Positions 7,689 to 18,474 of a stretch of DNA of 64,000 bases are shown here, one piece after another (position 1 is the first letter of the stretch; the number at the start of each line of letters is the position of its first letter). Source of the DNA: Aurantiacibacter poecillastricola. GTDB taxonomy: Bacteria; Pseudomonadota; Alphaproteobacteria; Sphingomonadales; Sphingomonadaceae. Position numbers and translations under genes: made by a program. Under the pieces are notes generated by a model. That model saw only the letters and a program-made list of their open reading frames with translations, ran no database searches and was not told the origin of the DNA. The stretch spans positions 558,001-622,000 of the forward strand of contig NZ_JAVAMS010000001.1 in assembly GCF_030730945.1 (NCBI RefSeq). The letters run 5' to 3'.

Positions 7689-8699
7689 TCAGATCCCGCC
7701 GCCGGTAAGCCGCTGGCAGATCAGGTCCAGCTGGTCGAGCGTGCGAAAGCGTACCGTTACCGAACCCGAGCGCGGGTCGTCGTCAGTGGCGATCTTCACC
7801 GGCAGGCCAAGGAATTCCTCGAGATGATTCTCGACCGCGGCGATATCGGCATCCTTTGCCGGATCGCGCGCCGGGCGAGCCTGCCTGCGCGTGGGCGCGT
7901 TTTCGCCTCCACTTCGCGCCTTGCGGGCCAGCTTCTCGACCTCGCGAACGGAGAGCCCGTCCTTCACCGCTTTCTCGGCCAGTTCCTCTGCGTTATCCAG
8001 GCCGATCAGCGCCCGCCCGTGGCCCATGTCGAGCATTCCCGTCTCCAGGTGATCCAGCACCGCCTCCGGCAGGGCGAGAAGGCGCTGGAGATTGGCGACG
8101 TGGCTGCGCGATTTCTCCACCAGGCCAGCAATGTCGGCCTGGGTCATGTCCTCCAGTTCGGCTAGACGCTGATAGGCACGCGCTTCCTCAACCGGGTTCA
8201 GGTCTTCACGCTGAATATTCTCGATAAGCGCCAGAGCCATGACATCGCGCTCTTCGAGATCGCGAATTATGGCAGGAATTTCATGCATTTGCGCCTTCTG
8301 AGAGGCGCGCCACCGCCTTTCGCCGGCGACAAGTTGATACTTGCCCGATTTGAGCGGACGCACGATCACAGGCTGAATCACACCGCGCGCGGCGATGGAG
8401 GCAGCGAGCTCGGCCAGCGCCTCGTCATCGAAATAACGCCGCGGCTGGTCGGGATGGGGTTCGATGTCGGAGATGGCGAGATTGGCCAAGCCGTCAGTCC
8501 GAGAAGTCGCGCGTTCCTGCACTGCGGTATCGCCGCCGTCGCGTGATTCTCCGGACCTCGAGGAGACAAGAGGCTCTTCCCGCTTCGCCTCTCCCAACAG
8601 GGCACCCAGACCCTTGCCCAGCTTCCGCCGGTTGGCTGCAGCGCGGGGCGCTACTGCCTTTTCCTCGGTCTTCTGTTCGGCTTTCTCGGCTTTGCTCAT
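7689..8699 (-). CDS. parB: Chromosome partitioning protein ParB
   Basis: 336-residue ParB/Spo0J-type CTPase that binds parS, slides along DNA as a clamp and works with ParA to segregate the origin. The N-terminal CTP-binding domain starts at about residue 75 and carries the GERRWR motif at 126-131. The helix-turn-helix region follows (ALALIENIQREDLNPVEEA, then TQADIAGLVEKSRSHVANLQRLL). The C-terminal dimerisation domain ends GSVTVRFRTLDQLDLICQRL. The start codon overlaps the parA stop by four bases (ATGA), so the two are translationally coupled. Five parS-like sites lie 0.8-4.4 kb upstream in the same locus. Confidence 0.97.
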   Translation of the reverse strand: MSKAEKAEQKTEEKAVAPRAAANRRKLGKGLGALLGEAKREEPLVSSRSGESRDGGDTAVQERATSRTDGLANLAISDIEPHPDQPRRYFDDEALAELAASIAARGVIQPVIVRPLKSGKYQLVAGERRWRASQKAQMHEIPAIIRDLEERDVMALALIENIQREDLNPVEEARAYQRLAELEDMTQADIAGLVEKSRSHVANLQRLLALPEAVLDHLETGMLDMGHGRALIGLDNAEELAEKAVKDGLSVREVEKLARKARSGGENAPTRRQARPARDPAKDADIAAVENHLEEFLGLPVKIATDDDPRSGSVTVRFRTLDQLDLICQRLTGGGI

Positions 8700-9472
8700 G
8701 CCGCTTTCCTCTCTTGCGGCAGGCGGCCGATCAATTCTCGGGCCAGCGCCATGTATGCGCGGCTGCCTGGGCAGGTGTTGTCGTAGACCAATGCTGGCAA
8801 TCCGTGGCTTGGTGCCTCGGACAACCGTACGTTGCGCGGGATGACGGCTTCGAAGACGAGATCGCCAAGGCATTCGCGCACATCGTCGGAAACCTGGTCC
8901 GTCAACCGATTTCGGCGATCAAACATGGTGAGAGCGATCCCGATAATACCCAGATTAGGGTTGAAGCGCTGTTGCACCTGTTCAACCGTTTGCAGCAGCT
9001 GGCTCAAACCCTCGAGCGCAAAAAACTCGCATTGCAGGGGCACCAAGAGCGTATCAGCCGCGCATAGCGCGTTCAGCGTGAGCAAACCCAGCGAAGGCGG
9101 GCAATCGATGAAGCAGATGTCGTGTCCCGTATGGTCCGCCAAGGCGCGGCGCAGGAGCTGCGTACGGTCTTCGATGCCGACGAGCTCGATTTCCGCTCCG
9201 CTCAAATCAACCGTAGCGGGCAGTAGATCCAGTCCCGGAATTGTCGAGGAAACAACGCATTCGCTGATTGCAGCGCCATCTACCAGTACGTCATAGCTCG
9301 AAAGATCCCTCTGGGCAGCAGCAAGGCCCACCCCCGTAGAGGCATTTCCCTGCGGATCGAGGTCGATCAACAAGGTTCGCCAGCCACTGGCGGCCATGGC
9401 GGTCGCTATGTTGATGGCGGAGGTGGTTTTGCCCACCCCGCCCTTTTGATTGGCAATGGCAATGGTAATCAT
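8696..9472 (-). CDS. parA: Chromosome partitioning ATPase ParA
   Basis: 258-residue ParA/Soj-type ATPase that drives origin segregation with ParB. The deviant Walker A motif QKGGVGKTT is at residues 9-17, the switch region includes LLIDLDPQGNAS, and the nucleotide-proximal DCPPSLG segment is present. There is no N-terminal DNA-binding extension, as expected for a chromosomal rather than a plasmid ParA. It overlaps rsmG upstream and parB downstream by four bases each, giving an rsmG-parA-parB transcription unit. Confidence 0.97.
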   Translation of the reverse strand: MITIAIANQKGGVGKTTSAINIATAMAASGWRTLLIDLDPQGNASTGVGLAAAQRDLSSYDVLVDGAAISECVVSSTIPGLDLLPATVDLSGAEIELVGIEDRTQLLRRALADHTGHDICFIDCPPSLGLLTLNALCAADTLLVPLQCEFFALEGLSQLLQTVEQVQQRFNPNLGIIGIALTMFDRRNRLTDQVSDDVRECLGDLVFEAVIPRNVRLSEAPSHGLPALVYDNTCPGSRAYMALARELIGRLPQERKAA

Positions 9473-10098
9473 AGCGGCCCTGGCCTCCCTTTGCCGATTA
9501 ATATGCCTGCCGAGGGATCAGTAGTCGATTGTTCCACGTGGAACATTTCCTGGATAGCTGCAGGCTGCTCTGCTAACTCAATCGCTCCCTTGCGACCTTT
9601 GGGCAACAACCATGTCGTCGAGCGTGTGGAAAAACGGGCGGATAACTCGAGGAGCCTGCCGAGCGGAGCGAAGGCGCGCGCAGTGATTACGGCAGCTTCG
9701 CGCTTATCCACATTTTCGAGGCGCATCCCGCAGACCACGCAATTCGACAAGGAAAACACGTCAACAACCTGCTCAAGCCATTCAATGCGCCGCTTGCGCG
9801 ATTCGATCAGCACTATTGGCGTGTCACGTCTGGCAATAGCCAGGACAAGACCAGGAAATCCCGCTCCGGTTCCCAAATCCATCCATGTGCCCGATGTTTC
9901 ACGTGGAACATGGTCGAGCAATTGCAGGCTATCTGCGATGTGCCGCAGCCAGACTTGCCCTAGACTTGCCGTCGATACGAGATTTTGTCGATCATTCTCA
10001 TGCTCGAGCATGGGAATAAATGCACGAAGGCGCTCCATGGCATCCTGATCGCAGCGCTCAGCGCAAAAATCCCGGGCTGCTTCTTCTGTAGTTATCAT
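9469..10098 (-). CDS. rsmG: 16S rRNA (guanine527-N7)-methyltransferase RsmG
   Basis: 209-residue SAM-dependent methyltransferase (GidB) that methylates G527 of 16S rRNA. The SAM-binding motif [10 protein letters not shown] is at residues 75-84, preceded by HIADSLQLL, both typical of the family. Two parS-like palindromes are embedded in its coding sequence (9530-9545 and 9895-9910). It overlaps mnmG by four bases upstream and parA by four bases downstream. The position between mnmG and parA is the usual one in alphaproteobacteria. Confidence 0.96.
9530..9545. other. parS: parS-like site 1, inside rsmG
   Basis: TGTTCCACGTGGAACA is a perfect 16-base palindrome and matches the GTTCCACGTGGAAC core of alphaproteobacterial parS. 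It lies near the 3' end of rsmG, just upstream of parA. Confidence 0.88.
9895..9910. other. parS: parS-like site 2, inside rsmG
   Basis: TGTTTCACGTGGAACA differs at one base from the perfect palindrome and keeps the CACGTG core. It is 365 bases from site 1, inside the rsmG coding sequence. Confidence 0.88.
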
Positions 10099-11948
10099 GC
10101 TGCCCGATCCCTGCGTCGCGCATGAACCAACAGGGCGGCCAGTGCCGCTGGCGTAATTCCTCGCACCCGCCCAGCGGCGGCGAGAGTGCGCGGTTGTGCT
10201 ACGCTTAACCTTTCGACCATTTCGTTCGACAAGCCGGGAACGTCGCCAAACGGAAAATCCGAGCCCAATTCGACAGCGTCGCTGCTGCGGAGATCGCGGA
10301 GCTCTGCATCCTGTCGCGCGAGATAAGGCGCGTATGCTGCATCCTCAGCAACTTCTTCTGCAACCGCGGAAGTGCAATCCAGCCCGCCGGGGAGCCATGG
10401 GGACAAGTCCGAGATTTCAATCCCGGGGAACGCCAGCCAGTCGAACAAGGGCTTTCGTCCGGCGTCTCTCTTTACCGGGATACCCGCCTCCGCGAGCAAT
10501 CCTGCCGTGACCACTCGCTCCAAGGCGGTGTTCCACGTGGAACACTCGTCCAATCGTCTCGAAAACCATTCCGCGCGCTCTTGCCGCACACATCCAATTG
10601 CTAGCGCAAGAGGAGTAAGACGTGTTGTCGCATTATTCGCACGAAGCCGTAACCGGTATTCCGCACGTGCTGTCAGCATACGATAAGGCTCGCTCACGCC
10701 ATGCAGAGTAAGGTCGTCGACCATTACCGCCATGTAACTATTGGCCCGATCGATGGCGGGCGGCTCTTTCCCAAGCAACGAACATCCGGCGTAGAGGCCT
10801 GCGAGCAAGCCTTGGGCAGCCGCTTCCTCATAGCCGGTCGTACCATTGATCTGCCCCGCACAGTAAAGCCCGGCTATGGCCTTGACCTGAAGGTCTGGCC
10901 CCAATGCCCTCGGATCGATATGATCGTATTCGACCGCATATCCGGGTACGGCCATAACAACCTGTTCCAGCCCCTCCATCGCTCGCAGCATATCAAGCTG
11001 CACGTTTACGGGGAGCGACGTGCTGATGCCGTTCGGATAGACGAGGTGCGTTTCCAAGCCTTCCGGCTCAAGGAACACCTGGTGCCCATCACGGTCTGCG
11101 AAGCGGTGGATCTTGTCTTCGATCGAAGGGCAATAACGGGGTCCGGCCGCTCCGATTGCCCCGCTGAAGAGCGGAGACCTGTGAAGGTTGTCCGCAATGA
11201 TTTCATGGGCGCGAGGATTGGTTCGGGTTATCGCGCAGAACACCTGGGGGTTCGTGCGTTGTCTCGTCAGTGGCGACATTGTCCAGCCGTCGCTGTCGGA
11301 GGGTTGCTCCTCCAGACCCGACCAATCGATGGTCCTTCCGTCAAGACGCGGCGGTGTTCCCGTCTTGAGCCGCGCCATGGGTAACTCGGCATTTCGTAAC
11401 TGATCGGCGAGCCTGTGTGCCGCGTTCTCCCCTATTCTCCCACCTTCGAAGCGTTCCTCCCCGCGAAAAAGAGTTCCGCCCAGAAAGGTGCCGGTGCACA
11501 GGATCACGGCCTTCGCAGCAATCTCGGTGCCATCCGCTAGCGCGATTCCCGTCACCCGGTCGTTATGGAGAAGGAGGGCGGCGGCTTCTCCTTCAATGAC
11601 CTGGAGATTGTCCTGCCTCAGGACCATCTTTTGGATAGCCGACTTGAACAATTTGCGGTCCGCCTGGACGCGAGGCCCCTGTACGGCGCTGCCCTTGGAG
11701 CGATTCAGCATCCGGTAGTGGATCGCGGCTGCGTCGGCAGCTCTTGCCAAAAGGCCATCGAAGGCATCGACTTCCCGGACAAGATGGCCTTTACCGAGAC
11801 CGCCAATGGCAGGGTTGCAGCTCATCGCACCAAGAGTAGCAGCCTCGAATGTGACCAGAGCAGTACGCGCGCCGAGGCGCGCGGATGCCGCCGCCGCCTC
11901 GCACCCGGCGTGTCCGCCGCCTACAACTATCACATCGAAGTCATGCAT
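10095..11948 (-). CDS. mnmG: tRNA uridine-5-carboxymethylaminomethyl(34) synthesis enzyme MnmG
   Basis: 617-residue FAD-dependent partner of MnmE in wobble uridine modification (GidA). The FAD-binding GGGHAG motif is at residues 10-15, followed by [18 protein letters not shown]. Other family segments include [16 protein letters not shown] and [21 protein letters not shown]. The C-terminal helical domain is complete and the length is normal. The start at 11948 is supported by alignment of the [18 protein letters not shown]-terminus. A parS-like site lies within the gene at 10529 and another in the gap to mnmE. Confidence 0.97.
10529..10544. other. parS: parS-like site 3, inside mnmG
   Basis: TGTTCCACGTGGAACA is a perfect palindrome identical to site 1, located in the 3' quarter of mnmG. 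Confidence 0.88.
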
Positions 11949-11971
11949 GATTTGCAGCCGTTTAACCGATC

Positions 11972-11987
11972 TGTTTCACGTGGAATA
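11972..11987. other. parS: parS-like site 4, between mnmG and mnmE
   Basis: TGTTTCACGTGGAATA keeps the CACGTG core but has one substitution in the right arm compared with site 2. It is the only one of the five sites outside a coding region, in the 41-base gap between mnmE and mnmG. Confidence 0.72.
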
Positions 11988-11989
11988 GG

Positions 11990-13264
11990 CTATTTTCCAA
12001 TGCAGAACCTGCCGAAAATAGCATCAAGTACGTCTTCTGTGTCGGTTCGCCCGACCAATGCATCGAAGGCGCGTCGCGCCTCGCGCAAATTTTCCGCCAC
12101 GAGCAGTGGGTCGCTTACCTCCCCCGCTCTCTCGACCGCATGCGAAGCCTCGGTGATGCGTGACCTCTGACGATCATTCAGAGCGGCTTCTCCCGGTTTG
12201 GGCATGGACTCGCGGGCTTGGGTAACCAGTGCCGCGCGCAATGCATCAAGACCATCTCCGCTTACTGCCGATACACGTAGCCACGGTGCCGTCTTGCGCG
12301 TCCTTTCGGGGCGATCCACCTGAGCCTCTATCTCCAGGGAATCCGACGGTCCTTCCCCTTCGGGACCGAGCCATAGAACCAGGTCAGCCCGAACGATTTC
12401 CTCATGGGCACGCGAAATGCCTATTGCCTCGACTGTGTCAGCCCCGGCAGCGCGAAGGCCAGCCATATCGACGAAGGTAAAAGGCACGCCGCGAATGGCA
12501 ACTGAACGCGTCAGAACATCGCGAGTTGTGCCAGCAATCTCCGCGGTAATCGCAGCCTCGCTGTCGACGAGAGCATTGAACAGTGTGGACTTGCCTGCAT
12601 TTGGGGGGCCAGCCAATGCCACACGGTACCCTTCGCGCAAGGTTTCTGCATGTGGCGCTTGGAGGGTCTCCATGAGATCGCGGTGTAACGCGGTCAGGCC
12701 CTCCCGAAAGTCGGGCGACAGTTCCGCAACATCGTCCTCATCCTCGAAATCAAGGACGGCTTCGACCTGTGCCGAGAGGCCCAGCAGCGCCTCCCGCCAT
12801 CCCTCCGCCTTGCGAGAAAGAGTTCCGCCGGCCATCGCCAGTGCGCTTCGGCGTTGCAACTCGGTTTCTGCAGATAGCAGGTCTCCAAGCCCCTCGGCTT
12901 CTGCCAGGTCGATCCGCCCATTGGCAAAGGCGCGCCGCGTAAATTCCCCTGGTTCGGCTGAGCGGCATCCGTCGATCTCGCTTAGCGCAGCGTTTATCGC
13001 GGCGACGACCGCCCTGCCCCCGTGACAATGGAACTCCGCGAGATCCTCGCCGGTTACCGAGGCAGGACCGGGAAAGAAAAGCGCGAGGCCGTCGTCGAGT
13101 GTTTCACGTGAAACATTACGGAATGTCGCGTGCGTTGCCCGTCTGGGTTCGGGGATAGTGCCGATAACGGTCTGCAACACGTCCCTGACTGCTGGACCCG
13201 TCACGCGAATAACGCCGATCCCCGCGGGAGGCTGCCCGCTGGAAAGCGCGAAAATCGTATCCAT
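11990..13264 (-). CDS. mnmE: tRNA modification GTPase MnmE
   Basis: 424-residue GTPase that acts with MnmG on U34 of tRNAs. The N-terminal folate-binding domain starts DTIFALSSGQPPAGIGVIRVTGP. A central helical domain surrounds a G domain with P-loop GPPNAGKST at residues 219-227. The C-terminal CIGK motif with the conserved cysteine is intact. It is slightly shorter than the E. coli protein, as is usual in this group. DUF6489 lies three bases upstream on the same strand, so the two are probably cotranscribed. A parS palindrome lies within its 5' region. Confidence 0.96.
   Translation of the reverse strand: MDTIFALSSGQPPAGIGVIRVTGPAVRDVLQTVIGTIPEPRRATHATFRNVSRETLDDGLALFFPGPASVTGEDLAEFHCHGGRAVVAAINAALSEIDGCRSAEPGEFTRRAFANGRIDLAEAEGLGDLLSAETELQRRSALAMAGGTLSRKAEGWREALLGLSAQVEAVLDFEDEDDVAELSPDFREGLTALHRDLMETLQAPHAETLREGYRVALAGPPNAGKSTLFNALVDSEAAITAEIAGTTRDVLTRSVAIRGVPFTFVDMAGLRAAGADTVEAIGISRAHEEIVRADLVLWLGPEGEGPSDSLEIEAQVDRPERTRKTAPWLRVSAVSGDGLDALRAALVTQARESMPKPGEAALNDRQRSRITEASHAVERAGEVSDPLLVAENLREARRAFDALVGRTDTEDVLDAIFGRFCIGK
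13098..13113. other. parS: parS-like site 5, inside mnmE
   Basis: TGTTTCACGTGAAACA is a perfect palindrome and exactly the canonical bacterial parS consensus. It lies in the 5' part of mnmE, the site closest to the proposed origin, about 4.2 kb from it. Confidence 0.92.
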
Positions 13265-13267
13265 CGA

Positions 13268-13552
13268 TCAGTCTCGGTTGGGCTTGTCCTTGTCTTTGGA
13301 GACGCCGCTGCCCGCCCCCGCTGTCGTAGTCTTCGCAGCGTTTTCCATGAAGTTCTGGAACATCTTCAGTCCCATCTGGCCCATCGGCGCAAGTTGCCGC
13401 GCGTATTGTTCCAGCTGCTCGGTGTTGGAAACGCCCTTCATGGCCCTGGCGATCGAATCGACATAGACTGCGTTGGCCTGCTCTACATCGGGCAGACCCA
13501 TGAAACGCCGGGCTTCCTCGGGCGAGCAATCGATTTCGATATTGACCTTCAT
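13268..13552 (-). CDS. DUF6489 family small protein
   Basis: 94-residue cytoplasmic protein that I match to DUF6489, a family seen mainly in sphingomonads and relatives and of unknown function. The N-terminus MKVNIEIDCSPEEARRFMGLPD and the QMGLKMFQNFM helix are typical; the C-terminus is a short Ser/Lys/Asp-rich tail. The ATG at 13552 follows an AAAGGTGTCC stretch on the minus strand. It precedes mnmE by three bases and is divergent from the hydrolase gene at 13619. Confidence 0.75.
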   Translation of the reverse strand: MKVNIEIDCSPEEARRFMGLPDVEQANAVYVDSIARAMKGVSNTEQLEQYARQLAPMGQMGLKMFQNFMENAAKTTTAGAGSGVSKDKDKPNRD

Positions 13553-13618
13553 CGGACACCTTTCTCTCTAGCGCGCGTAGATCAATCGAGACCAATCAAC
13601 GCTGACGGAGAGTCCTAT

Positions 13619-14317
13619 ATGAGTGAGACACTCGCAATTACCACCCTCGATGGCCCCGACGTATTCAACGCCTATGTCGCGCGGCCAGAGGGCGCGCCGA
13701 AATCCGCGATCATCGTCATCCAGGAGATTTTCGGGGTGAACGCGGGCATCCGCCGCAAGTGCGACAGGCTGGCCGAAGAAGGCTATCTCGCCATGGCGCC
13801 CGACTTGTTCTGGCGTATCGAGCCGGGTGTCGAACTCGACCCCGACATCGAACCCGAATTCCAGCGCGCGCTCGACCTTATGGGCAAGCTCAATCAGGAC
13901 GCTGCAATCCGGGATATCGAGGCGACCATCAAACATGCTCGTACGCAGACCGAATCGGGCAAGGTCGGCGCGGTCGGCTACTGCCTCGGTGGCCGCCTCG
14001 CCTACATGACGGCAACCCGCACCGATGCCGACGCAACGGTGGGCTATTACGGTGTCGGAATCGACGAATTGCTGCGTGAGAAGGATTCCATAGCGCACCC
14101 GCTAATGCTGCATATCCCGACCGAAGATGGTTTCGTCAACAAGGCGACCCAGGCGAAAATGCACGAGGGCTTGGACGACCATCCCAAGGTCACGTTGTAC
14201 GACTATGAGGGACTGGATCACGGTTTCGCCACAGAATTCGGCAAGCGCCGCAATGAGGAAGCGGCGCAGCTGGCAGACAAGCGCACCGCAGAGTTCTTTG
14301 CCGAACATCTGAAATAG
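13619..14317 (+). CDS. Dienelactone hydrolase family protein
   Basis: 232-residue alpha/beta hydrolase of the dienelactone hydrolase family. The nucleophile elbow GYCLGG with a catalytic Cys is at about residues 118-123, the catalytic Asp is probably in the EDGF segment, and the His is in LDHGFA near residue 202, the usual Cys-Asp-His triad. The start follows a GGAGAG site with good spacing; a much longer upstream frame would overlap DUF6489 and mnmE. It is the only plus-strand gene between parB and the proposed origin. The natural substrate cannot be told. Confidence 0.88.
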   Translation: MSETLAITTLDGPDVFNAYVARPEGAPKSAIIVIQEIFGVNAGIRRKCDRLAEEGYLAMAPDLFWRIEPGVELDPDIEPEFQRALDLMGKLNQDAAIRDIEATIKHARTQTESGKVGAVGYCLGGRLAYMTATRTDADATVGYYGVGIDELLREKDSIAHPLMLHIPTEDGFVNKATQAKMHEGLDDHPKVTLYDYEGLDHGFATEFGKRRNEEAAQLADKRTAEFFAEHLK

Positions 14318-16295: not shown

Positions 16296-17318
<1,023 letters not shown>

Positions 17319-17325
17319 CGAAGAG

Positions 17326-17360
17326 TCCAATCAAACAATAAATATATATAAATAGGATTC
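17326..17360. other. AT-rich element of the proposed origin
   Basis: The core ACAATAAATATATATAAATA is nearly free of G and C in a GC-rich chromosome, which fits a DNA unwinding element. It could also contain the hemE promoter. Confidence 0.6.
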
Positions 17361-17376
17361 AGGACGTTGTTGGCCC

Positions 17377-17385
17377 TGTGGATTA
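17377..17385 (-). promoter_or_regulatory. DnaA box, near-consensus
   Basis: TGTGGATTA on the plus strand reads TAATCCACA on the minus strand, one mismatch from TTATCCACA. It lies about 17 bases from the AT-rich element. Confidence 0.55.
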
Positions 17386-17611
17386 CGGGAATTGCGCGGC
17401 TTTGCCCGAATTCTCCGGCGTTGAGAACCCTTTTGCCGCCATCCCGACTCTGCATCCGGCCTGAGTCAAACGACTCTTCTCCCCGCTATCCCCAGCCTGT
17501 TTGTAAAGCCGTTCGCCTGTCCATGACCCGGCCCCATGAATCCGGGTGGGAGAGGGGGTAAGTTCAATCGACAGCTTGTCCGCAATTCGCTCCCGTGGTT
17601 TATGCAGGGGC

Positions 17612-17620
17612 TTATCCACA
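17612..17620 (+). promoter_or_regulatory. DnaA box, perfect consensus
   Basis: TTATCCACA is an exact match to the DnaA box. Its last base is the A of the proposed ppsR ATG, so DnaA bound here could also affect ppsR expression. Confidence 0.7.
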
Positions 17621-18474
17621 TGGCCCGGCTGCACCTTCATCTCCTATCGGATTCCACCGGCGAAACGCTGGAAATGCTCGCCAAGGCGGCGCTGGCTCAG
17701 TTCGGCGACGCCGACGTCCAGCGCCATTTCTGGCCGATGGTCCGCTCTGTCCAGCATCTCGAACGCATCCTCGGCGATTTCGAGGATAACCCGGGCCTCG
17801 TCCTCTATACCCTGTCGAACGAAGCGACGCGCGACCGGCTGGAGGAAGCCTGTCGCCACCTCTCCCTTCCCCATGTCTCCGCACTCGACCCGGTGGTCGC
17901 AGCGCTGGAGGAGCGGCTTGGCCAGCAGGCGCATGGCCGCCCCGGCGGCAAGAACAAGATGGACGAGGCCTATTTCGAGCGGGTCGATGCCATCCAGTTC
18001 ACCATTGCCCATGATGACGGCATTGCCAGCGAGAACTGGGAGCAGGCCGATATCGTGCTCGCCGGGGTCTCGCGCACTTCCAAGACCCCGACCAGCATCT
18101 ATCTCGCCAATCGCGGTTACAAGGTCGCGAATATCCCGCTGGTGGTGGAAAGCCCGCCGCCCCCGATTCTCTTCAAGCTGAAGAATCCGCTGGTGGTCGG
18201 CCTGACGACGGCTCCGGCCCGGCTCATCCAGATCCGCCGCAACCGCCTGCTCTCGTTAAACGAAAAGACCCAAACCCCCTATGTCGACGAGGAGGTGGTG
18301 AGCAAGGAGGTCGCCTTCGCACGCCGGATGTTTGCCGATAATGGCTGGCCGGTGATCGATGTCACCCGCCGCTCGATCGAGGAGACCGCTGCCGCGGTGA
18401 TCAAGCTGCACCAAGAACGCGAGGCACGGCACGAAGCGAAGCGCCCCCCGCAAACCGGTCCCAAGCCGATATGA
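17620..18474 (+). CDS. ppsR: Pyruvate, water dikinase regulatory protein (PSRP/DUF299)
   Basis: 284-residue bifunctional serine/threonine kinase and phosphorylase that switches PEP synthase or pyruvate phosphate dikinase off and on (family knowledge; its target is not in this window). The N-terminus [20 protein letters not shown] and the nucleotide-binding [11 protein letters not shown] motif at 149-159 are diagnostic. The C-terminal SVEEVA-like part reads [19 protein letters not shown]. The ATG at 17620 gives the conserved N-terminus; upstream ATGs at 17536 and 17602 would add residues outside the domain. It overlaps maf by four bases. Confidence 0.9.

Follow-up and report, generated by a model that had tools for sequence, protein, structure and literature searches.

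The hemE-ppsR intergenic region as probable chromosomal origin

Where does replication of the Aurantiacibacter poecillastricola chromosome begin? The question is raised by the gap between the divergent genes hemE and ppsR, which lies in a stretch of 64,000 nucleotides, hereafter the window, corresponding to positions 558001-622000 of contig C1 in a genome of 3.88 Mb in 34 contigs. A preliminary description of this DNA had proposed an origin at this place. The gene neighbourhood, DnaA boxes, AT-rich block, conservation, parS/parAB and the literature on the same gene pair all support the proposal, and because of them we regard the 301-bp gap (17319..17619, no strand assigned) as very probably an oriC of the Caulobacter kind (hemE-COG1806 type). 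Its divergent neighbours are conserved and it carries an excess of DnaA boxes and of GANTC sites. Uroporphyrinogen decarboxylase, encoded by hemE (PF01208), occupies 16296..17318 of the minus strand and starts at 17318; the kinase/pyrophosphorylase gene ppsR (PF03618; a family that we take to be COG1806) occupies 17620..18474 of the plus strand. For an origin, the address at hemE is ordinary, whereas the GANTC load is unusual.

As the preliminary description stated, Caulobacter and Rickettsia have their origins between the same gene families: section 3 of PMC1914354 gives the Caulobacter origin as located experimentally between hemE and the COG1806 gene, and that of Rickettsia prowazekii as predicted between hemE and the COG1806 orthologue. 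Most Sphingomonadaceae in DoriC have an origin predicted near hemE (PMC4741004, section 5). These published and predicted origins at hemE would thus make the gap one of a known kind.

DnaA boxes, AT-rich block and their conservation

Both DnaA boxes originally described are present in the gap. A perfect box, TTATCCACA, lies on the plus strand at 17612..17620, and a sequence scan places a second, TAATCCACA, with one mismatch, on the minus strand at 17377..17385. Counting boxes with at most one mismatch, as is done throughout unless otherwise stated, 0.1 are expected in the gap and none of 1000 dinucleotide shuffles of the gap reached two. The whole window has six boxes against 3.88 expected, which is unsurprising, as 18 of 100 shuffles reached six. 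The part of contig C1 examined for box pairs, parS and skew (1.262 Mb) contains 75 boxes and four pairs within 300 bp, the gap being one of these pairs.

The AT-rich stretch of the gap is also real. Its richest 40 bp contain 31 A/T; across the 400 kb around the gap, about 0.002% of windows of that length are at least as rich. The block beside hemE at 17329..17356 (no strand) is a putative unwinding element. Between the boxes, the words TCCCCG and TCCCCA (plus strand, 17480..17494, starting at 17480 and 17489) resemble the weak W-box of Caulobacter, for which PMC4285127 gives the consensus TCCCCA, and are candidate DnaA binding sites.

Conservation was assessed in 80 named relatives, the best of at least 554 confirmed matches, and in class and order samples made of the best 30 loci each, chosen from matches in 79 of 114 genomes for the class and in 59 of 60 for the order; the gaps of relatives have common ancestry and are therefore not independent. 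Boxes number 102 in the 80 named gaps (4.8 expected; at least one in 69), 64 in 27 class gaps (2.4 expected; at least one in 22) and 87 in 29 order gaps (4.0 expected; at least one in 28). A left box (minus strand, within 90 bp of hemE) occurs in 34 of the 80 named relatives and 52 have a right box (plus strand, no more than 70 bp from ppsR), which is at position -8 in 20 of the 80. Twenty rows picked from near relatives (the window and 19 of the 80) were aligned. Mean identity to the window is 87% and 92% for the two boxes and 42-51% between them, and CGACTC, TCCACATG and the 13-mer CCCGTGGTTTATG, found at 17592 in the gap, are invariant or nearly so. The ppsR ATG at 17620 is kept in all 20 rows; an alternative in-frame start lies upstream at 17536. 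The encoded PpsR is 87-88% identical to PpsR of Aurantiacibacter odishensis, A. zhengii and A. rhizosphaerae.

Gene neighbourhood and partitioning functions

A hemE gene is divergently upstream of ppsR in all 80 named loci, in 28 of the 30 class loci (own genome included) and in 29 of the 30 order loci, the remaining order locus, L271, being situated at a contig start. The strand layout reported earlier holds. To the right of the gap, ten genes with Pfam matches, all on the plus strand, extend to 24.1 kb; to the left, hemE, a UPF0093 gene, rho, mnmE, mnmG, rsmG, parA and parB are on the minus strand, and a single dienelactone-hydrolase-like gene (13370-14317) is on the plus strand. The dnaA gene is distant from the gap, at C1:1107700, which fits the statement in PMC8116508 that dnaA is not retained near ori in Sphingomonadales.

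The partitioning genes are parB (7689..8873, minus strand; PF02195, PF17762, PF23552) and parA (8696..9472, minus strand, start putative; PF13614). Five parS-like sites, located 4.5-8.1 kb left of the gap in or between rsmG, mnmG and mnmE, form a cluster at 9530..13115 (no strand), with a perfect site at 13100 and near-perfect ones at 9530, 9895, 10529 and 11972. With up to two mismatches, the general parS consensus matched nowhere else in the 1.262 Mb of C1. Three relatives also have parS-like sites to the left of ppsR, at a distance of 6.1-10.6 kb. Among the parS-like sites of the window, rsmG contains another pair of DnaA boxes (9625-9633 and 9704-9712), one of them perfect; no exact box was found at its position in the three relatives checked.

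On the scheme known from Caulobacter and from origins in general, DnaA would bind the two outer boxes (17377 and 17612) and extend across the weaker TCC-core words that separate them. The AT-rich block next to hemE would open, and helicase loading would be followed by the departure of forks both ways. ParB bound to the parS cluster would then separate the copied origins.

Strand asymmetry and alternative locations

Several observations weigh against an origin in the gap. Boxes are absent from 11 of the 80 named, 5 of the 27 class and 1 of the 29 order gaps; the left and right outer boxes occur together in 20 of the 80 named relatives; and the gap has just two boxes, where other origins have five or more. 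No good CtrA site (TTAA-N7-TTAA) was found in the gap, the best match having two mismatches and lying in the AT block. Sites with at most one mismatch occur in 16 of 138 gaps (lengths 292 to 1068 bp, the own gap being entered twice, as the window and as L236). CtrA sites are not universal, being zero in some published origins according to section 10 of PMC1914354.

Strand asymmetry belongs in part with these points. Cumulative GC skew over the 1.262 Mb stays low between about 475 and 605 kb of C1, a broad floor whose minimum is at 605448, 29.8 kb to the right of ppsR. For the octamer GGGNAGGG, the switch is placed at +13.8 kb with a support interval of +10.7 to +23.3 kb, and a switch at the gap is 5.2 log units worse. 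Among relatives, the best GGGNAGGG switch is near +134 kb in EC-HK427 and near +154 kb in A. marinus. The log-likelihood gains there are 7.0 and 3.7, respectively, and those for a switch at the gap 0.3 and 1.6; in Q. citrea the best switch coincides with the gap. The skew switch predicted at 17.3-17.6 kb was not cleanly borne out, the GC minimum and the GGGNAGGG switch falling 13.8-29.8 kb too far right, while fourfold-site skew and several octamers are compatible with it. The gap falls inside the support intervals of GGGCAGGG, GGGGAGGG, GGCGAGGG and GGGCGGGG, and GGGCAGGG is the octamer most biased between its two sides (94 to 29). With gene strand controlled, fourfold-site skew permits a switch anywhere between 394 and 620 kb, and the gap, at about 576 kb, scores 0.94 log-likelihood units below the best position. 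The weak skew, octamer and fourfold results together set a turn in this part of the contig without picking the gap. As locators, two measures were discarded: plain GC skew, which is too weak and seemingly tied to gene strand, and the oriented octamers of relatives, which have 15-63 sites per octamer in 400 kb and give conflicting switch points.

These measurements bear most directly on the possibility, which we consider very unlikely, that replication really starts 11-30 kb further right (about 29-47 kb of the window) and that the gap is a conserved DnaA-regulated divergent promoter. The GC minimum and the GGGNAGGG switch of this genome fall in that direction, as do the GC minima found in three relatives, which lie between +11.4 and +11.6 kb. 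However, the latter are within about 0.45 kb of a PCMT (minus)/fumarase (plus) junction common to the three relatives and the window, as gene strand alone would produce, and they differ from the value at ppsR by just 24-75 in ranges of 993-2020. Moreover, the own genome has no box pair within 300 bp in that region, and parS lies on the opposite side. Hardly any weight can be given to the idea that the gap is no origin at all and that its boxes serve DnaA as a transcription regulator of ppsR and hemE, the origin being elsewhere in the genome, for although box pairs and skew cover 1.262 Mb of the 3.88 Mb, the AT-rich block, the adjoining parS and parAB, a skew turn within this part of C1 and a neighbourhood kept across the class speak against it.

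Two further features of strand composition were observed. The octamers GGGCAGGG and GGGNAGGG are strongly polarised along the 1.262 Mb of C1; strong polarisation is expected of octamers that act as FtsK-orienting sequences. Strongly negative AT skew occurs at about 650-682 kb (down to about -0.11 per 8 kb) and 794-834 kb (down to about -0.13) of C1.

GANTC sites and CcrM

The proposed origin contains six GANTC sites, the CcrM motif, against 1.4 expected in shuffles; they span 17323..17542 (no strand), with starts at 17323, 17356, 17446, 17463, 17472 and 17538. Contig C1 has 1.25 GANTC per kb, versus 4.54 when the first 300 kb are shuffled once, and its only other places with six or seven sites in 302 bp are at about 10601-10930 and 889876-890303. 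Among 195 intergenic gaps of 100-600 bp delimited by a rough gene finder, this one has the top count and the second-highest density, and it keeps the top count, at four, when the trimmed borders of the gene finder are used. Divergent intergenic gaps have a mean of 3.3 GANTC per kb.

In the 80 named relatives, the gaps have a mean of 16.5 GANTC per kb versus 2.06 in the rest of those loci, and in 61 of the 80 the gap equals or exceeds the best other stretch of equal length; the A. marinus gap, with three sites, is an exception. In the order sample the excess is less marked (91 versus 41.0 expected). As a class-wide trait it was rejected, being slight in the class sample (77 versus 61.3 expected). 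Two loci of the order sample, L246 and L247, have 460-bp hemE-ppsR gaps with 13 GANTC each, compared with a maximum of 11 in the 80 named gaps.

A CcrM-like protein with a RAMA domain is encoded on contig C23, GcrA is also present in the genome, and all of 59 family genomes have RAMA. One of the five perfect DnaA boxes in the genome (C23:201052-201060; L210:640-648) ends 18 bp before the start of ccrM. In 30 ccrM loci (the best of those from the 59 family genomes, the own locus among them, with ccrM starts placed by tblastn), the region from -200 to +60 holds an exact box in 18 and a box with at most one mismatch in 20; elsewhere in these loci there are 5 in 89,674 bp. No report of GANTC density at erythrobacterial origins, or of a DnaA box before ccrM, was found among titles and the beginnings of abstracts, which is weak evidence of novelty.

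These features leave room for a speculative and rather unlikely circuit, in which the Erythrobacteraceae origin would be gated by a DnaA-CcrM loop and not by CtrA: the box at the ccrM start would time the methylase, and GANTC methylation would time DnaA refiring and ppsR transcription. Such a circuit is a testable guess. In Caulobacter, GANTC sites are known in the origin, and section 15 of PMC3973325 describes a role of methylation in timing as sought and not found, CcrM not being needed for initiation control.

A promoter-like pair before ppsR

The perfect box ends on the first base of ppsR, its last A being the A of the ATG, and the earlier suggestion that DnaA binding there could affect this gene is plausible, since transcription from a conserved -35/-10-like pair would begin on the box. 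This pair, TTGTCC-N17-TTTAT, lies upstream of ppsR on the plus strand at 17576..17603, with TTGTCC at 17576. Pairs of the form TTGNCN-N17-TTTAT occur in 87 of the 138 gaps, the spacer being 17 in 86 of the 87 despite the variable gap length; on the opposite strand the TTGNCN-TTTAT pattern matches 2 of the 138. The fixed spacer would be explained by an RNA polymerase site with its transcription start on the DnaA box that overlaps the ppsR ATG, although on another reading the pair represents weak DnaA words. A strict sigma-70 scan of the gap returned no promoter and did not pick up the pair at 17576. DnaA on the start-codon box would at the same time mask the start belonging to this promoter-like pair, so that ppsR may be transcribed mainly while the box is free.

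Other elements were also sought in the gap. Three candidate IHF sites, each with one mismatch to the general consensus, and no exact one were found. Folded as single-stranded DNA, the gap is no more stable than its shuffles (z -0.02). The CcnA RNA of Caulobacter, described in PMC8959179, prompted a check for RNA in the gap; a conserved RNA was rejected, the sole Rfam match being at chance level and far below the gathering score.

Comparison with known origins

The closest comparison is with Cori of Caulobacter crescentus (hemE-CC0001, COG1806), which, as described in PMC1914354, PMC4285127 and PMC3973325, is alike in flanking genes, AT-rich region, DnaA boxes, TCCCCA-like words and the occurrence of GANTC in the origin. 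The two differ in that the strong box of Cori is TGATCCACA, whereas here it is the canonical TTATCCACA; Cori has five TTAA-N7-TTAA CtrA sites, whereas none with at most one mismatch occurs here; five DnaA boxes are given for Cori, compared with two here; and GANTC density here is far above background. The predicted oriC of Sphingopyxis granuli TFA and the DoriC Sphingomonadaceae, known from the description in PMC4741004 (section 5), is alike in its place beside hemE, gene order, DnaA boxes and unwinding element. Escherichia coli oriC, with its Dam/SeqA control, resembles the gap in manner of working only, dense adenine-methylation sites lying inside both origins, but it uses GATC and Dam where GANTC and CcrM are found here. 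Rickettsia prowazekii has the same gene pair, and its origin reportedly carries CtrA and IHF sites (Brassinga, 2002), in contrast to the lack of a good CtrA site in the gap.

Implications

As the likely origin of an Aurantiacibacter-like genome, the hemE-ppsR gap anchors studies of gene dosage, skew and segregation, and since the neighbourhood is common to relatives, the corresponding gap is likely to be their origin too. The GANTC density and the DnaA box of ccrM make methylation timing testable in alphaproteobacteria without origin CtrA sites. The DnaA-CcrM loop, if true, would amount to an alphaproteobacterial analogue of Dam/SeqA control, assembled from unrelated components.
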